A program made the position numbers and the translations under genes. Below the pieces are notes generated by a model. The model made no database searches. It was not told the origin of the DNA and saw only the letters and a list, made by a program, of their open reading frames with translations. 64,000 bases of DNA from an uncultured Roseburia sp. (lineage in GTDB: Bacteria > Bacillota > Clostridia > Lachnospirales > Lachnospiraceae), in assembly GCA_947644305.1 (NCBI GenBank), contig CANRYS010000014.1, positions 1 through 64,000 of the forward strand. The letters run 5' to 3'. Within the stretch, counting starts at the first letter, position 1; every line of letters starts with the position of its first letter. Below are positions 18,929 through 35,320 of this stretch, piece by piece.

Positions 18929-20569
18929 ATGACAAGATTCAAAAAAACAGCCGCCGGGGTACTTACAGCAGCGCTCTGCATAACACTGATCGTTCCAGCA
19001 GGAGCAGAAGGTGCAGCAAAAAAACCGAAACTCTCGAAGAGTAAGCTTAGCGTAAAAACCGGTAAAACAGCGACATTAAAAGTAAAAAATGCTGCTAAGG
19101 CAAAGATTAGCTGGAAGAGCAGCAAAAAGAAGATCGCGAAGGTGAAAGCCAGCGGAAAATACGGTTGTAAGATTACAGGGGTAAAACGCGGAAACGCTGT
19201 GATCACCTGCCGGATCAAAAAAGGCAAAAAAAACACTACATTAAAATGTAAGGTGACAGTCCAGTCATCAAAGAAGATCGATTCATCGAAAAAAACGCCG
19301 GCTCCGACGAATACCCCCCCTGCCACTCCGGCGCCAACTATAACACCACCTAAGCCGGAGACACCAACACCGGCTCCGACGCCAGATCCTAACAGCATTT
19401 TAGGAAAATACGGTGACATTTTCCCTTATCTTGGAAACTGCCTCAATAGCTGGCAGCTTCAGGATGCCACCATAATGAGCCATGTAAAAAAACATTATAA
19501 CAGCTTTACCCTTGAGAATGAGATGAAACCGAACTCTCTTCTGGGCTTTTGGGCTACTCCTATCTCCAAAAAGCAAGCAAGGGAAAAAGGATATATTCTG
19601 CCAGATACATATAAGGAAACCTATGTACCCCAGCTCAATTTTGAGCAACTGGACAAATCTATTGAGACCGCATACAACAATGATCTTAAGATGCGCGGTC
19701 ATACCCTGCTCTGGCACAGCCAGACGCCACAGTGGTTCTTTGTTAAGGATTACAAAAACGGTTCGACTGTTGTCACCGAAGAAGTGATGGACGCAAGACT
19801 GGAATTTTACATCTCCACCGTTATGTCCCATGTCATGGAAAAAGAAATAGAATTAACGGGCGAGGCAGGAAGTATTGTATACGCCTGGGATGTGGTAAAT
19901 GAATATCTTCATCACGGTTATGCCGGCAACATCACCACCTGGACCTCTGTATACGGTGAACAGAACCTGAAACCTACCTATGTAAAGAAAGCATACGAAC
20001 TTGCCTATGAGCAACTGGAACAATACGACGCACAGGATAAAGTGACTCTGTTTTATAACGACTATGACACCTATTTCAATGCGGATCATCTCGTGAAACT
20101 CGTCAACTATATCAATGAAGGGGAAGAAACTGAAATCTGCAACGGTATCGGTATGCAGAGCCACTTAGACGTGGATCGCCCAACCCTCGAAGTCTATGAA
20201 AAAGCATTGAATATGTTCCTGGATACCGGACTGGAGATTCAGATCACGGAGCTGGATGTAACCATCAACTGGGATCACAAATCAGCCTATGATTATAAAG
20301 ATGAAGGTCAGACCGACGAAGACCAGGCAGCTTATGTCCGAGACTTTATGGAAATGGTCATAAATACCCAGAAAAACCGGGACACAGCAGTCAATGAAAA
20401 GGGAATCACCAGTCTTACCATCTGGGGACTGTATGACAGCGTCTCGTGGAGAGGTGGAGCCCAGCAAAAAGGAAACAGCCGCCCTACTCTGTTCGATACT
20501 TCCATCAACGATCCGAAACCTTCTTTTGAAGAGTTTTTAAGTGCAGCGGAAGTATGGCATCAATCATAA
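18929..20569 (+). CDS. Secreted endo-1,4-beta-xylanase, GH10, with Lys-rich Ig-like module
   Basis: 546 residues. Signal peptide at 1-29, Lys-rich BIG2-like module at about 31-112, Pro/Thr linker at about 122-153, GH10 catalytic barrel at about 157-546. The barrel carries all the usual landmarks: ENEMK (196-200), RGHTLLWHSQTP (256-267), acid/base Glu325 in WDVVNE, GMQSHLDV (408-415), nucleophile Glu441 in ITELDV, and the last strand TSLTIWGLYD (494-503). It should cut internal beta-1,4-xylosidic bonds outside the cell. GGAGAAGGAAA precedes the ATG. A paralogue follows 30 nt later in the same direction, so the two are probably co-transcribed. There is no CBM. Confidence 0.93.
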   Translation: MTRFKKTAAGVLTAALCITLIVPAGAEGAAKKPKLSKSKLSVKTGKTATLKVKNAAKAKISWKSSKKKIAKVKASGKYGCKITGVKRGNAVITCRIKKGKKNTTLKCKVTVQSSKKIDSSKKTPAPTNTPPATPAPTITPPKPETPTPAPTPDPNSILGKYGDIFPYLGNCLNSWQLQDATIMSHVKKHYNSFTLENEMKPNSLLGFWATPISKKQAREKGYILPDTYKETYVPQLNFEQLDKSIETAYNNDLKMRGHTLLWHSQTPQWFFVKDYKNGSTVVTEEVMDARLEFYISTVMSHVMEKEIELTGEAGSIVYAWDVVNEYLHHGYAGNITTWTSVYGEQNLKPTYVKKAYELAYEQLEQYDAQDKVTLFYNDYDTYFNADHLVKLVNYINEGEETEICNGIGMQSHLDVDRPTLEVYEKALNMFLDTGLEIQITELDVTINWDHKSAYDYKDEGQTDEDQAAYVRDFMEMVINTQKNRDTAVNEKGITSLTIWGLYDSVSWRGGAQQKGNSRPTLFDTSINDPKPSFEEFLSAAEVWHQS

Positions 20570-20599: not shown

Positions 20600-22318
20600 A
20601 TGAAACGTAAACAACACATGGCACTGCTGTTGGCAGGCACACTTTTACTCTCGGCAGTGTTACCATACACTCAGGCATCCCAGACAGAAGCCGCTGCCAA
20701 GCCAAAGCTGAGTGTCAAAAAGATGTCGCTGATCCTTGGCAAATCCAAAAAAGTTCAGGTTAAGAACGTAAAGAAAAAACAACTGAAAAAAATCACCTGG
20801 ACGGCAAAAAACAAAAAGATCGTTACCGTTAAGAAAAGCGGGAAACTCGCCGCCAGTATCAAAGGAAAAAAGACAGGCACTACTAAAGTAACAGCAAAAA
20901 TCTATCTGAAAACAAAGAAAAAACCAATATCGGCTGTCGTTACTGTGACAGTTAAAAAAGACAAAAAACCTGTCAAAACTCCTGTGAACACGCCGAATTC
21001 TCCTGCTGTCACTTCACTTCCACCTGCTGCTTCTGGAACACCTCCAGTATCCCAGCCACCGGCAAGTAGTAACAAACCACAGGAAGACCCAACGAATATA
21101 ATGGAAGCCTACGATGGTATTTTTAAATACATGGGAACCTGTGCCAACTATTATGGATACGATGAAAAGAAAGATCAGCTCAGAACCCGCAGCACACTGG
21201 ATTTCATCACCAAAAATTTTAACAGTATCACGCTGGAAAATGAAATGAAACCAGATGCAATACTCAGCAGTTGGGGTGTAGGAGTTCAAACGCTTACTCT
21301 CAGTGAGGCAAAAGAAATGGGCTATTATATCCCAGAGAACTATCCAGAGACAAAAGTGCCTCTCTTAAATCTGGATACGGTAGACAGTACACTGGAGACA
21401 CTAAAAAAAGAAGGACTTCAGATGCGTGGCCACACTTTTGTATGGCATCAGCAGACACCTGTAGAATTTTTTGTTAAAAATTATTCTGGAAACACGAAAG
21501 TGACTCCTGATGTAATGGATGCGAGATTAGAGTTCTTTGTCAGAAACGTGATGCGTCATGTCATGGACAAAGAAAAAGAACTGACGGGTTCCGCAGGAAC
21601 ACTGGTCTATGCTTGGGACATGATCAATGAGTATATACACCGCACTCACGACGCCACAAGAATTAGCTGGCATAACGTATACGGTGATATGGGACTGGAA
21701 CCTTCGTATGTTAAAAAAGCATTTGAAATCGCTTATGAGGAATTGGAAAACTATGGTGTTCAAGATAAAGTAGTTCTTTATTACAATGATTATGACACCT
21801 ATGACTGCGCCGATGATATTGTTTCCCTCGTAAACTTTATCAACCAGGATGCCACTGATAAAAACGGAAATCCCGTAAAAATCTGTGGTGGTATTGGTAT
21901 GCAGAGTCATCTCTGCGTGGATTATCCAACGATAGAGAGCTATGGTGACGCTCTGGATAAATTCTTGAGTACAGGACTTGAAGTCAGCATCTCTGAGCTG
22001 GATGTCTCCACCAACTATGCCAAAACTGGTGAAACGGACGCCCAAGGTTGGGATAAATGGGCCTATAAGGATCTGGGACAGACCGACGAAGACCAGGCAG
22101 CTTATATAAAGAGTCTGATGGAAATGATCGTCTCCAAGCAGAAAAACCTGGACCGAAACAAAAATCAGACAGGAATCGCTGGTGTAACAATTTGGGGACT
22201 TTACGATAACTGTTCCTGGAAAGCAAATACAAAACCTCTCCTTTTTGGCAAATCCATTACGGATGCCAAAGCATCCTACTATTCTTTCCTGGATGCCGCA
22301 GCAATATGGTATTCTTAA
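20600..22318 (+). CDS. Secreted endo-1,4-beta-xylanase, GH10 (second copy)
   Basis: 572 residues with the same order as the preceding gene: signal peptide (1-31), Lys-rich module (about 34-119), Pro/Ser/Thr linker (about 123-163), GH10 barrel (about 167-572). Catalytic acid/base Glu344 lies in WDMINE and nucleophile Glu466 in ISELDV. RGHTFVWHQQTP and GMQSHLCV are intact, and the last strand is IAGVTIWGLYD. The C-terminal third contains an insertion (NYAKTGETDAQGWDKW) absent from the first copy. The two enzymes are clearly paralogous but not recent duplicates. AAGGAGGTTATC precedes the ATG, and a terminator follows at 22347-22385. Confidence 0.93.
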   Translation: MKRKQHMALLLAGTLLLSAVLPYTQASQTEAAAKPKLSVKKMSLILGKSKKVQVKNVKKKQLKKITWTAKNKKIVTVKKSGKLAASIKGKKTGTTKVTAKIYLKTKKKPISAVVTVTVKKDKKPVKTPVNTPNSPAVTSLPPAASGTPPVSQPPASSNKPQEDPTNIMEAYDGIFKYMGTCANYYGYDEKKDQLRTRSTLDFITKNFNSITLENEMKPDAILSSWGVGVQTLTLSEAKEMGYYIPENYPETKVPLLNLDTVDSTLETLKKEGLQMRGHTFVWHQQTPVEFFVKNYSGNTKVTPDVMDARLEFFVRNVMRHVMDKEKELTGSAGTLVYAWDMINEYIHRTHDATRISWHNVYGDMGLEPSYVKKAFEIAYEELENYGVQDKVVLYYNDYDTYDCADDIVSLVNFINQDATDKNGNPVKICGGIGMQSHLCVDYPTIESYGDALDKFLSTGLEVSISELDVSTNYAKTGETDAQGWDKWAYKDLGQTDEDQAAYIKSLMEMIVSKQKNLDRNKNQTGIAGVTIWGLYDNCSWKANTKPLLFGKSITDAKASYYSFLDAAAIWYS

Positions 22319-26718: not shown

Positions 26719-27597
26719 TTAGTGCAGGATCTTTCCATTTGCCACCTGCATCAGATGTTTCCCATAGCTTGAATTCCCATAGGAATTTGCCTCCTCAATC
26801 AGTCTGTCTCTATCAATCCATCCATTTTTATAAGAAATTTCTTCTACTGCCGAAAGCATAATACCCTGTCTTTTTTCAATAACACGGACAAAATCACTGG
26901 CATCTGCCAAAGCGTCCATCGTGCCTGTATCCAGCCAAGCAAATCCACGTCCCAATGTAACCACATTCAATTTTTCTTCTTCCAGATACATGCGGTTCAA
27001 ATCTGTGATCTCCAATTCCCCCCGCGCTGACGGCTTTACTTTTTTAGCTAATTCCACAACCCGGTTGTCATAAAAATACAGACCGGTAATACAATAATTC
27101 GATTTTGGAACCTCGGGCTTTTCTTCTATGGATATCGCCTTTCCATTTTCATCAAACTCCACAATACCAAAGCGCTCCGGATCATCTACATAGTAGCCAA
27201 ATACCGTAGCTCCTTCCTGCCTCGCCGCTGCATTTCGCAGATGCTGCCCAAGCCCGCTTCCATAAAATATATTATCTCCTAACACCATGGCACAGGAATC
27301 TCCATCAATAAACTCCTCACCGATCAAAAAAGCCTGCGCCAGTCCATCCGGACTAGGCTGTACTTTGTATTCCAAATGCATTCCAAGACGAGAACCATCT
27401 CCGAGAAGGCGTTCAAAATTTGGCAGGTCCGTCGGCGTGGAAATGATCAGAATATCCCTGATACCTGCCAGCATTAATGTAGAGAGCGGATAATAGATCA
27501 TAGGTTTATCGTAAACTGGAAGAAGCTGCTTGGAAGTCACTTTCGTCAAAGGATACAATCTTGTCCCTGATCCTCCTGCTAATATAATGCCCTTCAT
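26719..27597 (-). CDS. rfbA: Glucose-1-phosphate thymidylyltransferase
   Basis: A 292-residue nucleotidyltransferase that makes dTDP-glucose, the first step to dTDP-rhamnose and related sugars. N-terminal [26 protein letters not shown], then the [11 protein letters not shown] and [20 protein letters not shown] segments, are diagnostic of RfbA/RmlA. The length is standard. The rest of the dTDP-rhamnose pathway (rfbB, C, D) is not in the window. It lies next to surface-glycan genes but on the opposite strand to the polymerase and sugar transferase. Confidence 0.93.
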
Positions 27598-27702: not shown

Positions 27703-30099
27703 TTACTCTAACACTGGCTGCATGGTACCATTGTTGATGTCAATCGCCATCTGCATAAGTTTTTTATAGTATTCTGCCTGAGCTGCATTTCTGGATTCAT
27801 CGTAGTTCTTAACAGTCAACTCGGTAAACTGAACCTGAAGTCCTAAATCAGCGAACTTAAATACAGCATTCGGGATACTATCAGCAGTTGCCTTTTCCGT
27901 TGGAAGAAGAAGATCGTCTCTAAACTCACTTGTACTGCTTCCAAGATAACACTGCATACCTACACCATCGATCAAATCGCCTTTTCCTCTTTCGTTTCCG
28001 AAAGCTTTGATGCTCTCAGCCAATGCACATATCGCATCACGCTTATTTCTCTGGAAACAGCCAAAGTCATTATAGAAAAGTTTAATGTTAATGTCTTTAT
28101 TTGGATACAGCGCTTTCAGTTCATCCACAGCTTCTCTTGCATAGAGGAAGGAATATTCTACATAATCACGTCCAATCGTATCATAGAAGAGGTTATTATT
28201 GATCTGAATCTTACGCTCGTCACCCTTCTCATACTGACCATTTCCTGTATCAATCGCTTCGTTTACAACATCCCATGTGTGGATTGTTCCAGGATATTTC
28301 TCTTCGAAATACATAATTGCCTGTTTGATGATACTTCTCAAACGCTCCAGCATAACTTCCTTACTTGCCAGTGGTTTTGTAGTATCATAGTCTTCATGGA
28401 AGAAGAATTTACAGTTTGTATCCATATTCGAATCGCATACGATTGTATGTCCGCGAACGCCAATACCATTCTCATACGCCCACTTAACCATATTCTCTCC
28501 ACTGAAATCTTTTCTGAGAACAGGCATACCGTCACCATTTGCATTTGCAACCGTAGCATCCTGATCAAGAAGCCCATACAATTTCAAGTCGTTGTCAATA
28601 GTCATACTTGAGAAATGTCTGTTAAGTACAGCCTTATAGCTCTCATCTTTGAAGTTTGTATTTGAAATTACACCACCGATGGTAAATCCAAATTTGTCTT
28701 CTGTATTCTCATAAAGCGGAGAATATTTCAAAGTCTCTGCGGAAGCATCCTGTTTGTCAGAAGCAATCTCTGTAACCTTTACATCCTTGATATAGAAATC
28801 ATCATGAGTTGTAGTATTTCCGTACCAGTTCATACATACATAGATCTTCGCCGCATTCACTCCGTTAATAGAGTAGTTTGCTGCAAGGGTCTTCCAAGAA
28901 CCAGAAGTCACTCTCTCCTGAACAAGCATCGGTCTGTCGTTAGCCTCTTCACCATTTTCATCTACAAACAGAATCTGTCCGTAGAAAGCACTACCGTTAT
29001 GTTTAGGGTTCGTATGTCTTACATCGATAGAAATTCGATAATCTTTGGAAGGATCTACTAAGTAATCTGTGATTTCAATCTGAATTCCATGCCAGTTATC
29101 TTTACGACCAGATACAAGTACCGCTGGTCCATTTCCACTGTCTGTCGGCTCCAGAGTGCCCGCATCAACAACAGTTACCTTCTGATCTTTGTTCTCAGAA
29201 GTTGTTCTGGAATTGAAATCTACAGAGTGGTCAACCATATCAATATATTCTTTTGTATCCCAATTCAGCTTACCAGTGGACACGATTGATTTTACGCTCT
29301 TATCACTGCTCTCACCGATTGTATAAAGAGGCTCATCGGCAGCTTCATCCGCCATCAATTTCATCGAATTAAGGCTCTGAGCTGTACTTGCTGTAAACAA
29401 TTCATGGAGAGTTTTAAAGTTATCTTTTGCGTCATACCATTTTGAAAACAGTCCTGAATAAGTTCCAAACTGAGTATAATCATATCCGGTTTCTAGATAT
29501 GGATTATCGCGAAGTCCCCAAATCGTAATATTACTGATCTTAGGATCTTCGATACTGCTCTTATGCTTAATTCGCTTTTCACCAGCGTTAGGAGCGGCTG
29601 TATACTCTGGTTTAGGTCCATTGTCATCGCCTGGCGTTGAAGTTGGATTTGGTGTTCCCGCAGGTGGGGTAGCTGGCGCAGTCGGAACTGCGGTCGGTGC
29701 GCTGGTCACATCAGGAGTACTCGTCACCTTTGGTGCTGCCTTCTTCACGGTAACCTGAACTTTAAGACTTGTGGCCTTTTTCTTCCCCTTCAAGGTAAGT
29801 TTCGCAGTAATTGTCGCCTTTCCTGCTTTTTTACCAGTGATAGTAAATGCTGTTTTCCCCTTTTTCTTGACGGTTGCAATCTTCGTCTTACTGGACTTAA
29901 CTGTAAGCTTTTTGACTGCCTTTGCCTTTACATTTTTAATCGTTACTTTCTTGGACTTTTTAACCTCTACTGTCGCTTTTTTCGTGCTAAGTGCTGGTTT
30001 TTTTGCGGCAGACGAATCTGGAGCCTGCACACCAGCCATAGTGATGGCCATAGCAGCGATCAGCGTTTTGGCTAATGCACCTTTTACATTTTTGTGCAT
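27703..30099 (-). CDS. Secreted GH10-like enzyme with circularly permuted catalytic domain
   Basis: 798 residues from the ATG at 30099 (AAAGGAGGTATTACTT upstream). Order: signal peptide (1-32), Lys-rich Ig-like module (about 34-120), Pro/Thr linker (about 122-168), a segment ISNITIWGLRDNP...LFSKWYDAKDNFKTLHELF (188-235) that is the last strand and helix of a GH10 barrel, a CBM22/CBM4_9-like beta domain (about 270-447), then GH10 strands 1-7 (about 466-798). Acid/base Glu614 (WDVVNE) and nucleophile Glu760 (FTELTV) are present. The protein stops where the eighth strand would follow, so that strand seems supplied from the N-terminal side. Canonical substrate residues differ (see findings). It should be extracellular and act on xylan or a related glycan. 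Confidence 0.85.
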   Translation of the reverse strand: MHKNVKGALAKTLIAAMAITMAGVQAPDSSAAKKPALSTKKATVEVKKSKKVTIKNVKAKAVKKLTVKSSKTKIATVKKKGKTAFTITGKKAGKATITAKLTLKGKKKATSLKVQVTVKKAAPKVTSTPDVTSAPTAVPTAPATPPAGTPNPTSTPGDDNGPKPEYTAAPNAGEKRIKHKSSIEDPKISNITIWGLRDNPYLETGYDYTQFGTYSGLFSKWYDAKDNFKTLHELFTASTAQSLNSMKLMADEAADEPLYTIGESSDKSVKSIVSTGKLNWDTKEYIDMVDHSVDFNSRTTSENKDQKVTVVDAGTLEPTDSGNGPAVLVSGRKDNWHGIQIEITDYLVDPSKDYRISIDVRHTNPKHNGSAFYGQILFVDENGEEANDRPMLVQERVTSGSWKTLAANYSINGVNAAKIYVCMNWYGNTTTHDDFYIKDVKVTEIASDKQDASAETLKYSPLYENTEDKFGFTIGGVISNTNFKDESYKAVLNRHFSSMTIDNDLKLYGLLDQDATVANANGDGMPVLRKDFSGENMVKWAYENGIGVRGHTIVCDSNMDTNCKFFFHEDYDTTKPLASKEVMLERLRSIIKQAIMYFEEKYPGTIHTWDVVNEAIDTGNGQYEKGDERKIQINNNLFYDTIGRDYVEYSFLYAREAVDELKALYPNKDINIKLFYNDFGCFQRNKRDAICALAESIKAFGNERGKGDLIDGVGMQCYLGSSTSEFRDDLLLPTEKATADSIPNAVFKFADLGLQVQFTELTVKNYDESRNAAQAEYYKKLMQMAIDINNGTMQPVLE

Positions 30100-30136
30100 A
30101 AGTAATACCTCCTTTTTTAATTTAGAACTATCTTTT

Positions 30137-30174
30137 AAAAAAAGGTGCATACGCATAGGAATGCACCTTTTTTT
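30137..30174. terminator. Terminator upstream of the permuted GH10 gene
   Basis: The stem AAAGGTGCAT/ATGCACCTTT is flanked by A- and T-runs on either side. It separates the gene at 30227-32074 from the GH10 gene and could work in both directions. Confidence 0.85.
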
Positions 30175-30226
30175 GTTTTTAATCAGGTAACGATTTACCC
30201 ATTATTTGATTGATTTACAAAGTAAC

Positions 30227-32074
30227 TTACTCTGTTGGCTCCTCTGTAGCATCTTTCTTTGCATTCAATACAACCTTATCGATTGTAATTACAAGGTCAC
30301 CATCTGTAAGAGCTACAGAATTCTGGAAGAGAAGTTTCAACATGTTGGAACCACTTACAAGAGTCTCAAGAGAACCTTCTGCAACAATTCCTTTACCTTC
30401 TGCAAGGCTGCTTCCCTTAATGTTGTGAACAGTAACAAGTCCTGTGTCAGAAGCATCCGTATTGACAAACTGCAATGTCAGGATTCCATCATCCTCTAAG
30501 GATTCACCCTTATAGGTAGCGCTACCGAACATCGTAATGTTCTCGTAGTTAGCAAGATCTACACCCTCAATCAGTTTTGTAATATCAATAGTTCCCTTTC
30601 CTTTACCCTGTGCGGTATCCTTAGCAATGGTAACTACATTATTCTCTATCAATTCTAATGTAATATCTTCGATGACAGGTTTCTCAGCAGTTACAGTAAT
30701 CTGCTTTGTAAATGTGACTTTCTTATCCTTCGTCGTAGTAATCTCTACGGACACAGTCTCTACACCAGCTGCTTTTGCAGTGATGGTTGCCAGCTTAGGA
30801 TCATCTGCATTTGCTTTGAGCTCAACTACATCCGTTCCACCTGTGCTCCACTTAGCTTCTTTGATATCACCAACGATAGAAGCATTCTTCACAACAGCCT
30901 CAGCAGTTGTCTCATCTCCTACTCCAATGGTTCCTCTGCCAAGTGCCACAAGTCCAGCTGGAGCGATACCTTCTGTAGCGTCAATCTTATCGGAAGGTTT
31001 ATCATTGCCATCTGTTACACCATTCTTGCTTAATACACGAATGTTACCAACTTTATATTCGGTATTTGCGCCCTTTACTCCATCCAGGATTGCAAAAATA
31101 CTAAAACGAATCTTGTTGTCTTTGAGCTCCATATCTTCAAGTATTGCTGTATCAATCTCAAGCTCCTGATCTTCCAGAAGACCGGCATTGCTGAAGCTGA
31201 TTGCATACTCATCAACGGCAATATTTTTAATATTTGTAAACTGATTTACAGGATCCCACTCATACAACAACTCTCCTGGGAATGCATCCAGTGAATTACT
31301 ATCTGTGCTTCCTGCAAGAAGATATACTTTCTTATCCTCCAAGTCTCCAGATACAGCGTCAAAATCAAATTTTACACTGTAAAGATCTTTTACTGTAGAT
31401 CCCTCAGGAAGAACAACATCAAAATAGGTGTATACATTACCATATTTTGCGTTCTCATTGAGGATCAGATCAGCTGTACCATTCTCATCCACATTGAAGT
31501 AAGTCAGCTTAGAAGCTGCGTTACCACCAAGCTGGATATTCTTAATCGGATTTACCTCCCATGCCGGTGTAGGCGTTGGGGTAGGTTTCTTTGTCTTGAC
31601 TGGTGTCTGTGTCGTCTGTGGTACATCTGTTGTAGACGGCGGTGTCACAACAGGTGCCGGTGTAGGCGCCACAGTAGGAACTGATGTAGGCGCTGTCGTC
31701 TTAGGTGTCGTAGCATTCTTAACTTTTACATTCAAAGTCAGCTTTGTAGCTTTCTTCTTTCCTTTTACTGTAACTTTAACTGTAACTTTAGCATTTCCAG
31801 CCTTTTTACCAGTTACATTAAAAGCTGTTTTTCCTTTTTTCTTTACAGTAGCAATCTTCTTGTTAGAAGTTGTTACTGCAAGTTTTTTAACCTGCTTTGC
31901 TTTAACGTTCTTAATAGTTACTTTTTTGCTCTTTCCCTTAACTACTGTTACGGACTTCGCGGAAAGCTTCGCCTTCTTAGCTGCGTCAGCTTCCGGTGCT
32001 GCAGTTCCTGCCAGAGCAACTGTCAGGGCAACAGCCATAACTTTAGCTAAAGTTCTTTTGAAATTTCTTTTCAA
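30227..32074 (-). CDS. Large secreted protein with Lys-rich module and beta domains
   Basis: 615 residues. Signal peptide (1-32), Lys-rich BIG2-like module (about 34-125), Pro/Thr linker (about 127-170), a beta-rich domain resembling a cohesin- or CBM-like fold (about 175-350), a second Ig-like BIG2 domain (about 365-460, ATITAKAAGVETVSVEI), and a C-terminal beta domain (about 470-605) that could be a carbohydrate-binding module. No catalytic motif is recognised. Its N-terminal module is nearly identical to that of the permuted GH10 next door, including the segment KKVTIKNVKAK, implying recent duplication. TTAGGAGGTAAGAG precedes the ATG. It is probably an accessory binding or scaffold protein. 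Confidence 0.7.
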   Translation of the reverse strand: MKRNFKRTLAKVMAVALTVALAGTAAPEADAAKKAKLSAKSVTVVKGKSKKVTIKNVKAKQVKKLAVTTSNKKIATVKKKGKTAFNVTGKKAGNAKVTVKVTVKGKKKATKLTLNVKVKNATTPKTTAPTSVPTVAPTPAPVVTPPSTTDVPQTTQTPVKTKKPTPTPTPAWEVNPIKNIQLGGNAASKLTYFNVDENGTADLILNENAKYGNVYTYFDVVLPEGSTVKDLYSVKFDFDAVSGDLEDKKVYLLAGSTDSNSLDAFPGELLYEWDPVNQFTNIKNIAVDEYAISFSNAGLLEDQELEIDTAILEDMELKDNKIRFSIFAILDGVKGANTEYKVGNIRVLSKNGVTDGNDKPSDKIDATEGIAPAGLVALGRGTIGVGDETTAEAVVKNASIVGDIKEAKWSTGGTDVVELKANADDPKLATITAKAAGVETVSVEITTTKDKKVTFTKQITVTAEKPVIEDITLELIENNVVTIAKDTAQGKGKGTIDITKLIEGVDLANYENITMFGSATYKGESLEDDGILTLQFVNTDASDTGLVTVHNIKGSSLAEGKGIVAEGSLETLVSGSNMLKLLFQNSVALTDGDLVITIDKVVLNAKKDATEEPTE

Positions 32075-32181: not shown

Positions 32182-35109
32182 TCACTCTATTGTGATATTA
32201 TCCAGTTGGAATGCAAAGGATGCCGTATCATCTTCAGGACCAAATCCCACTTCTGATATCTTTCCTGCACTAACTCGGATTCTTGCTCTGATCTGAACCC
32301 ATTCACTGTTTCCTGACAAATCTTGTTTTGTTGCCTGGTTCCAAATCAACTTTTCAACCTTATCATAATCTTCGTAATTCTCGTACTCTGCCTTCATATA
32401 GGTTTTCGGACTGAGTACTGTCACAGTACCAGAGTTTGCATCCTCGGCTCTTACCCATGCACTTACCATATACTGCTTCTCTTCTTCACCAGCACGGTTG
32501 TCGATCAGGATGGATGGTTTTTCTCCCTCAGCAACTTTCAGATAGTGTGTACCGTCTTTTGCATCGCCCTCTACTACTGTTGAATTTGCAGCTCCCAAAA
32601 GGGAAATGCTCTCACCTTCCATGGACTCTGCAAACTTTCCATCTGGCATTTCTGCAACAGGAAGTTTCGGCAGATCACCCTGTGGTTTTGGTGTCAGTCT
32701 GAGAGAGTAAACTAAGAACTCTCCTGGACCATTATCGTTGCAGGCATTTCCGATAGCAATATATTTAACTGCATTGAAGTTACCTGCTGTAGCTTCGGTA
32801 GATTTCAAAGTACTCAACAGTTCTGAGAAGGTCTCAATACCAGCGGTAACAAATTCACCCTTATCATTTCGATCCGGTGATGAACCATCATAGAATGGCT
32901 GGGTCGCTATCGCTGCATTCTTCCACCACTCAGCATCCGTTACTTTCTGCTGTTCCGGCAGATTCTTGTCATAGAAGTCCAGAGTGGTCTGGAAAGTGGA
33001 AAATCCTTTCAGTTCTGCCTTCTGGTACGCCGATAGATTCACTTCCTCCGGCAGTTTGAAATAAATTCTCTGGTTCTTATCTGTAAATGTAAACTTCCAG
33101 CACTCAGTACCCTCACTATCTGTGGTCTTCTCTGGCTTGAGATCTCCAGAAAGCTCAGGATCATACCAAGCGTCTAAATCTACATAATATGGCACTGTAG
33201 GAAGTACCAGCTTGCAGACTTTGATGGTCACACTCTTAGTCAGAGCTGGGTTTACCTTAGATGTAGCAGTAACCACAACCTCAACGGTCTCTGCACCTGC
33301 ATAGTCAAAGTCCTCAGGTACTGTTACTTTTCCTTCGCTACTTACTGTCACCTGTGCATTGTTTGTCGTCCAGGTAAGATCTTTCTGTGTTGTATCCTCT
33401 GGAGTAAAGTTCACATTAACATTCGTAGATCCGCCCGGATAAACAACATCGCCGCCCTCGCTCAAAGCAAGTTCAAATCCAGTGATCGGAACATCATCCG
33501 ATACAAGAGCCACATTGTCCATGTAATATACAAGGCTTACACCAGTGGAAGCATACAGCGTATCTCCCTCATAGGTACTACCCATAACCACATCAAACTT
33601 GGTCTGATTCAACAATGTATCGTCTGCTTCTTTAATACGTGTTGTATTGAAGATCAGGTTTCTGGTAGCAAAGCCAACCTTTCCCTGCGCCTCATTCATC
33701 TTAAATCCTTTTGTACAAGAGTTCTCGATGAAGTGGGTAGCTGTGTCTTCCATCTTCCACACGTTATCGTGATAAGTCGGAAGATACTTATGTACTTCCT
33801 TCGAAGCTTTATCATTATGAAGAGTGATTCCTACTTCTTTATCACTTCCCGTTGCCATGGAAATATTCTTTCCAAAACGGTATTCTGGATGACCTGCTAC
33901 ATGCGCTGAATCCGTCTCATTATTTGTGGTAGAGAAGAAATCTGTTGTCTTGATCGCCCCATACTGGTCAAAATAACAACGTATCTCTTTGTACTTAATA
34001 TCTGGTGCATTTCCAACCACACGCCAGTCTGCACGGATCGTGGTGTAATTACCCAGCGTCTTTCCTGCTGCGGAAACCCCTTCAGAGTCTTTCAAGTTAG
34101 CAGTATCTACACTGAATATAGGCGCAAAGTCAAATGCTTTCTCCGGTCCATCCATCTTGATCTCCAGACATTTGTTATCTGGATTCTCTGGATCCTGCAC
34201 CACTGTCATATGTCCAGAATTCTTTCCGGCAGATGTGTACTTCGTCCAAGTTGTTCCCACTGGATAACTTTCGAAGTCTTCAATCATTGTATACTTTCTG
34301 GTATCTGGAGGCGCTGTCGGTGCTGCTGTCTTGTCCGTAACAAATGGAACAACTTTCAGCTTCACACTGGCCTTCTTACCGCTTCCGTCCATAGCAGTTG
34401 CTGTGATCGTAGCTGTCCCCTCTTTTTTGGGGTTAATCTTTGTGCTAGAGCCAGCCCTGTACGCTTCTGGAATAAAAGCTACACTGGATTTGCTGGATTT
34501 CCAGTAAAACTTTTTATGGGTCGCCTTTTTCGGAGAAGCTGAAGCCTTGAGAGTCAGTTCTCTTCCCCTCATAACCGTATATGTACCCTTTGACATCTTC
34601 AACGTCTCTTTATATTTTGGATACACCTTCTGCTTCTGTCCGTTTACTACCTTAAGTACCCAGTTCGCACTGCTCCATGAACAAACAGCTTTGGAATCGA
34701 TAGATACTTTCTTTACCGGCGTTCCAATCTTAACCTTGATCGTTGCTTTTTTCTTTTTATTCTGCTTGGATGTTACTGTGATTTTCGCAGAACCTTTGCT
34801 CTTGCGAGCTTTTACAACACCCTTTGAGCTGACACTTACAACGGATTTTTTACTTGACTTGTAAGATACTTTTTTGCTCGCTTTTTTAGGGGTCACAGAA
34901 ACATTCAATTTTTTCTTCTGTCCCTTTTTCAATACAAGTATGCCAGAACCGCCCACTTTGACTCCGATAGAAACTTTTTTAACTTTCTTAGTCGCTGCCT
35001 GAGAGTCAACGGATGAAACAGCCAAAGATGTCAGCACCATGGCAAACGCCAGTAAAAATGTGACAATCCTTCTGAGACACTTGTGTGACTGTGTACCGAT
35101 TTGTCTCAT
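32182..35109 (-). CDS. Very large secreted multidomain surface protein
   Basis: 975 residues from the ATG at 35109, preceded by TTAGGAGGTATTTCG. A longer frame to 35163 lacks a ribosome binding site. Signal peptide (about 1-38), then two or three BIG2-type Lys-rich modules (about 40-265, with KKVSYKSSKKSVVSVSSKG and a second VSIDSKAV... repeat). A large beta domain (about 275-520) resembles a glycan-binding or concanavalin-like fold. Another BIG2 domain (about 525-625, TWTTNNAQVTVSSEGKVTV) and two C-terminal CBM-like domains (about 630-800 and 805-975) complete it. No active site is recognised. The domain set suggests polysaccharide binding beside the xylanases. Function is inferred. Confidence 0.68.
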   Translation of the reverse strand: MRQIGTQSHKCLRRIVTFLLAFAMVLTSLAVSSVDSQAATKKVKKVSIGVKVGGSGILVLKKGQKKKLNVSVTPKKASKKVSYKSSKKSVVSVSSKGVVKARKSKGSAKITVTSKQNKKKKATIKVKIGTPVKKVSIDSKAVCSWSSANWVLKVVNGQKQKVYPKYKETLKMSKGTYTVMRGRELTLKASASPKKATHKKFYWKSSKSSVAFIPEAYRAGSSTKINPKKEGTATITATAMDGSGKKASVKLKVVPFVTDKTAAPTAPPDTRKYTMIEDFESYPVGTTWTKYTSAGKNSGHMTVVQDPENPDNKCLEIKMDGPEKAFDFAPIFSVDTANLKDSEGVSAAGKTLGNYTTIRADWRVVGNAPDIKYKEIRCYFDQYGAIKTTDFFSTTNNETDSAHVAGHPEYRFGKNISMATGSDKEVGITLHNDKASKEVHKYLPTYHDNVWKMEDTATHFIENSCTKGFKMNEAQGKVGFATRNLIFNTTRIKEADDTLLNQTKFDVVMGSTYEGDTLYASTGVSLVYYMDNVALVSDDVPITGFELALSEGGDVVYPGGSTNVNVNFTPEDTTQKDLTWTTNNAQVTVSSEGKVTVPEDFDYAGAETVEVVVTATSKVNPALTKSVTIKVCKLVLPTVPYYVDLDAWYDPELSGDLKPEKTTDSEGTECWKFTFTDKNQRIYFKLPEEVNLSAYQKAELKGFSTFQTTLDFYDKNLPEQQKVTDAEWWKNAAIATQPFYDGSSPDRNDKGEFVTAGIETFSELLSTLKSTEATAGNFNAVKYIAIGNACNDNGPGEFLVYSLRLTPKPQGDLPKLPVAEMPDGKFAESMEGESISLLGAANSTVVEGDAKDGTHYLKVAEGEKPSILIDNRAGEEEKQYMVSAWVRAEDANSGTVTVLSPKTYMKAEYENYEDYDKVEKLIWNQATKQDLSGNSEWVQIRARIRVSAGKISEVGFGPEDDTASFAFQLDNITIE

Positions 35110-35320
35110 CGAAATACCTCCTAAATTGTTTTTCTTATCGCGGAAAAACTCCATTTCTTCCACAATGAAATTATCATCATTATATCACCACTCTGTCCAA
35201 TATGCAAGGCTATTTTTCATTTTAGAGCCCTCTCACATCCCCCCTTGTTTTAACATTATTTACAATTTATTCACATTTTGTTTCTTTTTTGAATTGACTT
35301 CTTTGGTTGTTTCAATATAA

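Follow-up and report, generated by a model that had tools for sequence, protein, structure and literature searches.

Can the (β/α)8 barrel of a GH10 glycoside hydrolase be reopened by evolution, with its eighth strand and helix carried to the front of the chain and a carbohydrate-binding module (CBM) placed between the two parts? The question is raised by a minus-strand gene in a 64,000-nucleotide stretch of an uncultured gut bacterium, Roseburia sp. (Lachnospiraceae; assembly GCA_947644305.1, contig CANRYS010000014.1; the whole stretch is referred to here as the window), in which an initial annotation, made from the letters alone, had proposed such a circular permutation. We consider it highly probable that the gene encodes a secreted GH10-family glycoside hydrolase with a naturally circularly permuted (β/α)8 barrel, bridged by a linker and a CBM, and that this arrangement has a single origin by duplication and trimming. 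Residues are numbered on the longest open reading frame (ORF) of the locus (27703-30156, minus strand, 817 amino acids; P0001); subtracting 19 gives the 798-residue numbering (207-254 = 188-235; 485-817 = 466-798) of the initial annotation, whose gene coordinates and residue numbers, counted from the start at 30099, proved right.

The usual linear order of the fold, β1 to β8, is not the one read along this chain. The GH10 family model PF00331 matches P0001 at 485-809 (151.8 bits against a curated cut-off of 22.1), yet only over positions 6-268 of its 311, and the chain ends seven residues past the GH10 core (484-810). There is no space downstream for a C-terminal β8, because only 105 bases lie between the end of the stop codon, at 27703, and the start of rmlA, at 27597. 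Strands 1-7 (about 466-798 in the shorter numbering) do stop where strand 8 belongs, as first proposed. A hidden Markov model (HMM) of β8-α8, built from eight normal-order relatives, instead matches P0001 near its front, at 206-254, with 50.6 bits (E = 2.1e-13 for 24,736 comparisons); it matches all eight permuted proteins tested at 37.0 to 55.5 bits, and the best of 8000 shuffled proteins reached 11.7 bits. A profile-profile comparison of eight front segments with 16 normal-order tails gave a probability of 99.1 and E = 4.3e-19 over 52 columns. Both results bear out the identification of residues 188-235 (shorter numbering) as GH10 strand 8 and its helix. Searched alone against Pfam the front segment matched no family, and a subgroup profile was needed. 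Eight of the nine permuted proteins described below entered the HMM, profile-profile and rejoining tests, and also the tree, from which the near copy L010 was excluded.

Both pieces were then placed on one GH10 profile, made from 42 normal-order relatives (55 rows, from which 5 scoring below 50 bits and 8 that were partial or otherwise unsuitable had been removed) and run on the front piece plus core, with linker and CBM removed. The front piece of P0001 takes profile positions 313-357 and the back piece 12-309, without overlap and with nothing repeated, and each of the eight permuted proteins tested gives two abutting matches in this swapped order. Rejoining the pieces of P0001 in normal order raises the score from 300.9 to 334.3 bits (+33.4; 24.6 to 37.6 over the eight proteins), whereas 1000 shuffled tails of P0001 gave a mean of 300.4 and a maximum of 311.0 bits, a gain of at most +10.1. 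The Pfam GH10 model, which scores the native order at 149.6 bits with a match to positions 6-268 of 311, scores the rejoined order at 162.5 bits and matches positions 6-308. Searched against the PDB, the rejoined query moves the end of the 8bbi match from chain residue 252 to 351, with a smaller gain for 2w5f (481 to 497) and none for 1xyz, which stays at 294.

The swapped order is conserved. A full match to the front half occurs at nine places in seven of the 39 genomes of the genus, several of which are metagenome-assembled, so that absence from the other 32 is a rough count only; one genome, G412, has three of the nine, with front-half identities of 62, 46 and 45%. A contig scan found six loci, each matching the permuted protein over nearly its whole length, and the genomes behind them are six of these seven. 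No two of the nine proteins are the same; identity to the window's protein is 55-96% for the other eight, and all nine keep the front segment and the same end point (L012 runs a few residues longer). Homologues in the same order, for which the initial annotation had proposed a search, are present. Further afield, with scoring confined to the top 2 to 6 candidates of each genome in sets that hold few members of the genus, a scan of 392 genomes for the front-half order gave a full match only in the window's genome, and no other swapped-order match was seen in a whole-protein scan of 397 genomes of the family or in Pfam GH10 scans of the family (397 genomes) and phylum (378 genomes). Plasmid records with a match numbered 43, none covering 80% of the query. 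Candidates rejected along the way include G889 (8-288), G134 (split, 1-163 and 166-309) and L102 (query 63-271), all of normal order, and G089:C66 (profile 3-264, ending near the break), which runs off the contig end without β8 in front; many weaker matches that begin near profile position 47 end at 281-289.

The closest normal-order relatives (L016, L006, L017, L018, L019, L020, L052, L053, L056 and L008) carry β8-α8 at the C-terminus, with a related motif, and one of them, L006, lies in the window's own genome, where permuted and normal forms coexist. A maximum-likelihood tree of eight permuted and 28 normal-order cores places the permuted proteins in one clade (support 100/100) within a subgroup of 21 rows, its exact sister unsettled. 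Normal-order members of this subgroup such as L006, L016 and L056 are 33-43% identical over the matched part, share the related β8 motif, and have Tyr at His205 in all 14 of the subgroup's rows that were aligned; they differ in keeping β8-α8 C-terminal and in keeping Trp84, where the permuted proteins have a front β8-α8 and a Cys. L056 has a CBM-like stretch ahead of its normal-order barrel and comes closest to the ancestor that would be expected. The window itself holds two more normal-order GH10 genes in tandem on the plus strand (18929-20569 and 20600-22318), and its genome has ten GH10 matches overall.

We assessed selective constraint with simple NG86 counts of the ratio of non-synonymous to synonymous change (dN/dS). 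Against the three closest orthologues (L009, L011 and L014), β8-α8 has a dN/dS of 0.03-0.08, the core 0.04-0.05 and the Pro/Thr linker 0.30-0.36. Against more distant orthologues, for which most dS values approach or exceed 1 or are undefined (including the core dS in L013, L095 and L094), the values for β8-α8 are 0.10 for L012 (core 0.16), 0.09 for L013, 0.24 for L095 and 0.16 for L094, with 0.21-0.44 for the Pro/Thr linker over these four. On these counts constraint on the front segment is close to that on the barrel core. At the level of sequence, the GH10 domain is circularly permuted, in the order β8-α8, linker, CBM4_9, β1-α7, because the profile match is split, the order is kept in nine proteins, the nearest relatives have a C-terminal β8, and selection on the segment is purifying, much as it is on the core. 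As is characteristic of natural circular permutations, the swapped pieces abut without overlapping, normal-order homologues exist, and the order is fixed across independent genomes.

The active site was compared in an alignment of the nine permuted and 30 normal-order rows, with positions in the numbering of C. fimi Cex. Glu633 and Glu779 stand at the ends of β4 and β7, where GH10 enzymes have their catalytic glutamates, and are invariant throughout; the equivalents of Asn44, Lys47, His80, Asn126, Glu127 and Glu233 are retained in all 39 rows, and that of Gln203 in 9/9 permuted and 28/30 normal-order rows. The conserved Trp84 is replaced by Cys574 in every permuted protein, and His205 by Tyr in all nine as well as in 15 of the 30 normal-order rows. 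Trp213, in the front segment, is also invariant among the nine. As aligned, the catalytic pair is intact and residues near the active site are changed. A second Cys (residue 582), invariant in the permuted clade, lies close to Cys574, and a disulphide near the active site is possible.

Structure prediction gave two outcomes, depending on the input. Model 1 was made with AlphaFold2 from 39 rows, and most of the front is covered by the nine permuted rows alone. It has a mean predicted local distance difference test score (pLDDT) of 79.8 and a predicted template modelling score (pTM) of 0.61, and its core and CBM fold. The GH10 core of model 1 superposes on GH10 crystal structures at 1.8-2.6 Å over 269-288 residues (1.8-2.8 Å when model 2 is included), the rows of two-domain CtXyn10B excepted. 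Its end meets chain residue 286 of 330 in 1n82, 287 of 324 in 3w24 and 312 of 375 in 1hiz, leaving the last 37-63 residues or so of these chains unmatched. Residues 188-251 and 254-273 of model 1, however, have a pLDDT below 50 and form no strand; the segment is unfolded and the barrel open, an outcome that counts against a closed permuted barrel, or at least gives it no support.

Model 2 (AlphaFold2, 51 rows) was built from unmodified stretches: nine permuted rows, eight with CBM plus core, 13 cores and 21 β8-α8 tails, these normal-order tails being a deliberate addition. The core and tail rows derive from 22 core and 22 tail fragments, with the core of L056 lying inside a CBM-plus-core row and the tail of L060 left out. 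MAFFT, unguided, aligned every one of the 21 tails to residues 204-260, with a single residue in one of them straying. Mean pLDDT rises to 87.5 and pTM to 0.70; ten-residue blocks of the segment average 74-93, and DSSP assigns it a strand at 207-212 and helices at 224-230 and 245-255. The β1 strand lengthens by two residues (model residues 307-310 in model 1, 305-310 in model 2), and the aligned end of the superpositions shifts from model residue 630 to 622-624. Eleven of 50 superposition rows for model 2, against none of 50 for model 1, begin at model residue 70-72, just past α8, matched to the start of the crystal chain; ten of these 11 are entries of one enzyme, XT6. Superposition Z-scores are slightly lower than for model 1 (28-31 against 30-33). 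Native docking of β8-α8 would be expected to add a strand, lengthen β1 and shift the ends in this way, and closure of the barrel by the front segment is strongly suggested by this model. We infer closure rather than read it off directly, because the tails were added to the input and DSSP names no partner strand. The structural proposal of the initial annotation, that the segment fills the strand-8 position, accordingly fared unevenly: model 1 leaves the segment unfolded and the barrel open, and model 2 folds it with one strand and points to closure only by inference. The outcomes named there as refuting it, independent folding of the segment or completion of the barrel by other residues, were not seen.

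Taken together, the most likely reading of these results is a functional permuted enzyme, derived by duplication and trimming. In such an enzyme β8-α8 would dock in the open slot between β7 and β1, and Glu633 and Glu779 are predicted to act as in other GH10 enzymes; the protein is expected to be a retaining glycosidase. The new termini would lie in the α7-β8 connection, which in the GH10 fold faces away from the active site. The linker and CBM would span the old termini, joining α8 to β1; the termini of the GH10 xylanase BSX are in contact (PMC2893209), and a linker and CBM can therefore plausibly bridge them. A tether to the cell surface is probably provided by the N-terminal Ig-like module of the protein and would enter the barrel at β8. 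As for origin, we envisage that a CBM-GH10 gene was duplicated, that the first copy lost β1-α7 and the second β8-α8, and that a new front end, common to the adjacent gene up615, was gained, with the rearrangement occurring once, in an ancestor within the genus. Duplication of CBM-GH10 with trimming at both ends would give exactly the observed layout. The tandem trimmed at both ends that was first proposed fits in this respect, but no GH10-CBM-GH10 intermediate was seen in the family and genus scans (best 2 or 5 candidates per genome scored in the family scans).

An unlikely alternative origin is fusion, in which the β8 piece of a different GH10 donor was joined to a truncated GH10 and no single ancestral domain was permuted. 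The tails that score highest against the segment (L052 and L053) do belong to other proteins than the top-scoring core, L016, whose own tail scores 68 against 105. However, core and tail similarity order the 42 relatives in much the same way (Spearman 0.77) and peak in one subgroup, so both parts come from a single GH10 subgroup; the product and fold of a fusion would in any case be identical. A domain swap, in which β8-α8 of one molecule completes the barrel of another at the cell surface, seems improbable to us. The linker, part of which has a pLDDT below 50, and the CBM are together probably long enough to reach a neighbouring molecule, and no computation here separates closure in cis from closure in trans; against this, the termini of a normal GH10 lie together (PMC2893209), so closure within a single chain needs no long reach, and model 2, built as a monomer, folds the segment. 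We hold it similarly doubtful, as a speculation, that β8-α8 is a detachable strand on a flexible arm that closes the barrel in cis or in trans, so that crowding at the surface, or the binding of glycans by the CBM across the old termini, would govern assembly or activity, and that the change of Trp84 to Cys, fixed in the permuted clade, marks a new specificity.

Less probable still is that the front segment is a functionless relic of a lost first GH10 and the second barrel, without β8, is inactive or only binds glycans. The unfolded segment of model 1 and the changes of Trp84 to Cys and His205 to Tyr speak for such a relic, and weigh to that extent against a working permuted enzyme. On the other side stand the dN/dS of the segment against the three closest orthologues, which is like that of the core, the invariance of Trp213 and of both catalytic glutamates, and the retention of both ends in nine proteins down to 55% overall identity. 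An assembly error, or a frameshift hiding a C-terminal β8, which the initial annotation had named as a way to be wrong, has a negligible chance of being correct: no supporting point was found, only 105 bases separate the stop from rmlA, and the same order in seven genomes rules it out.

The layout of the gene is set out in Table 1. The start at 30099 (27703-30099, 798 amino acids) is preferred to that of the longest ORF, because AGGAGG lies about 9 bases upstream of its ATG and because in six of the nine permuted proteins no start codon of the ORF precedes the equivalent ATG. The CBM belongs to CBM4_9 (PF02018, 45.7 bits against a curated cut-off of 25.9). No Pfam model above its cut-off matched the Lys-rich Ig-like module of the permuted protein, for which the paralogue L095 has a weak Big_2 match below cut-off, and no NCBIfam model above its cut-off matched the permuted protein. 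A promoter scan gave 10 promoter-like sites against 6.6 (standard deviation 2.6) in shuffles, and 0 terminator-like sites against 2.2, counts that give no ground for a conclusion. By eye, a terminator-like hairpin (GGTGCAT...ATGCACC followed by a T run; 30135-30175, minus strand) lies between up615 and the permuted gene; it is absent from the scan, which was limited to loops of 3-8 bases.

Table 1. Features of the permuted GH10 gene and its upstream neighbours, in window coordinates; residues are those of P0001.
Feature	Position	Strand	Basis or remark
Permuted GH10 gene	27703..30099	minus	798 aa, better start
Ribosome-binding site AGGAGG	30108..30113	minus	sequence
Signal peptide, residues 20-50	30007..30099	minus	by eye: basic start, hydrophobic run, then SSA
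Lys-rich Ig-like (Big-type) module, residues 52-140	29737..30003	minus	similarity to neighbour's N-terminus
Pro/Thr linker, residues 141-190	29587..29736	minus	sequence
GH10 β8-α8, residues 205-256, moved to front	29389..29544	minus	profiles, dN/dS, model 2
Linker, residues 257-330	29167..29388	minus	between domains; 257-275 pLDDT <50 (model 2)
CBM4_9 module, residues 331-465	28762..29166	minus	Pfam match 334-443
GH10 β1-α7, residues 484-810	27727..28707	minus	PF00331 and superposition on GH10 crystal structures
Cys574 codon, replaces conserved Trp84	28435..28437	minus	Cys in all 9 permuted rows, Trp in all 30 of normal order
Glu633 codon, predicted acid/base	28258..28260	minus	E in 9/9 permuted, 30/30 normal-order rows
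Glu779 codon, predicted nucleophile	27820..27822	minus	E in 9/9 permuted, 30/30 normal-order rows
up615, upstream neighbour with shared N-terminal module	30227..32074	minus	homologue precedes permuted gene at 9/9 loci
up993, next upstream neighbour	32182..35163	minus	homologue next at seven loci whose contig reaches far enough

The neighbourhood is conserved along with the gene, the loci with an up993 homologue being the window, L009, L011, L012, L013 (in part), L014 and L095 (in part). The up615 homologue is broken into two ORFs (398 and 191 amino acids) at one locus, L013 / L096 (G412:C19), where the adjacent permuted GH10 is intact. The N-terminus of the permuted protein is 60% identical to up615 over query 2-142 (115.5 bits; next best in the genome 70.0), and this closest similarity therefore suggests local recombination as the source of the front module. 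The unit of signal peptide, Lys-rich Ig-like module and Pro/Thr linker (29662-30099) has 30 matches in the window's genome (G000), several of them in GH10 enzymes, and is probably a shared surface-attachment module. Both up615 and up993 are large and secreted-looking, with Big_2, in up993, as their only Pfam match above cut-off, and are candidate glycan-binding partners.

The coexistence of permuted and normal forms in one genome makes testable how moving β8-α8 and bridging with a CBM affect stability, binding geometry and specificity. GH10 tolerates, it would appear, a natural break between α7 and β8, which is useful for enzyme design, and ordinary domain annotation with Pfam shows such an enzyme as a truncated GH10.

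Natural circular permutations of triosephosphate isomerase (TIM)-barrel enzymes are, to our knowledge, few, and GH70 with GH13 is the textbook case. We found no description of a permuted GH10 among the open-licence PubMed Central papers searched, and the initial annotation named none. Among GH10 xylanases, CtXyn10B (PDB 2w5f; the best PDB sequence match, whose matched region takes in a module ahead of the barrel) and IXT6 (1n82; 1.9 Å over 270-273 residues) share the catalytic Glu pair and the β1-α7 fold, but their strands run 1 to 8 where here the order is 8-CBM-1 to 7, and the permuted protein has Cys for Trp84 and Tyr for His205. Bacteroidetes enzymes of the Xyn10C/BiXyn10A type (Pm25) likewise carry a CBM inside the GH10 sequence; their CBM4 is inserted between β3 and α3 with strands in normal order (PMC7848910), in contrast to the CBM between α8 and β1 and the unbroken β1-α7 (one match, 485-809) found here. 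The closest parallel in kind is that of the GH70 glucansucrases and GH13, a natural circular permutation of a (β/α)8 glycoside hydrolase for which a permutation-per-duplication model and non-permuted GH70 relatives are described (PMC4919382); it concerns another family, and the barrel starts there with α3 and here with β8.
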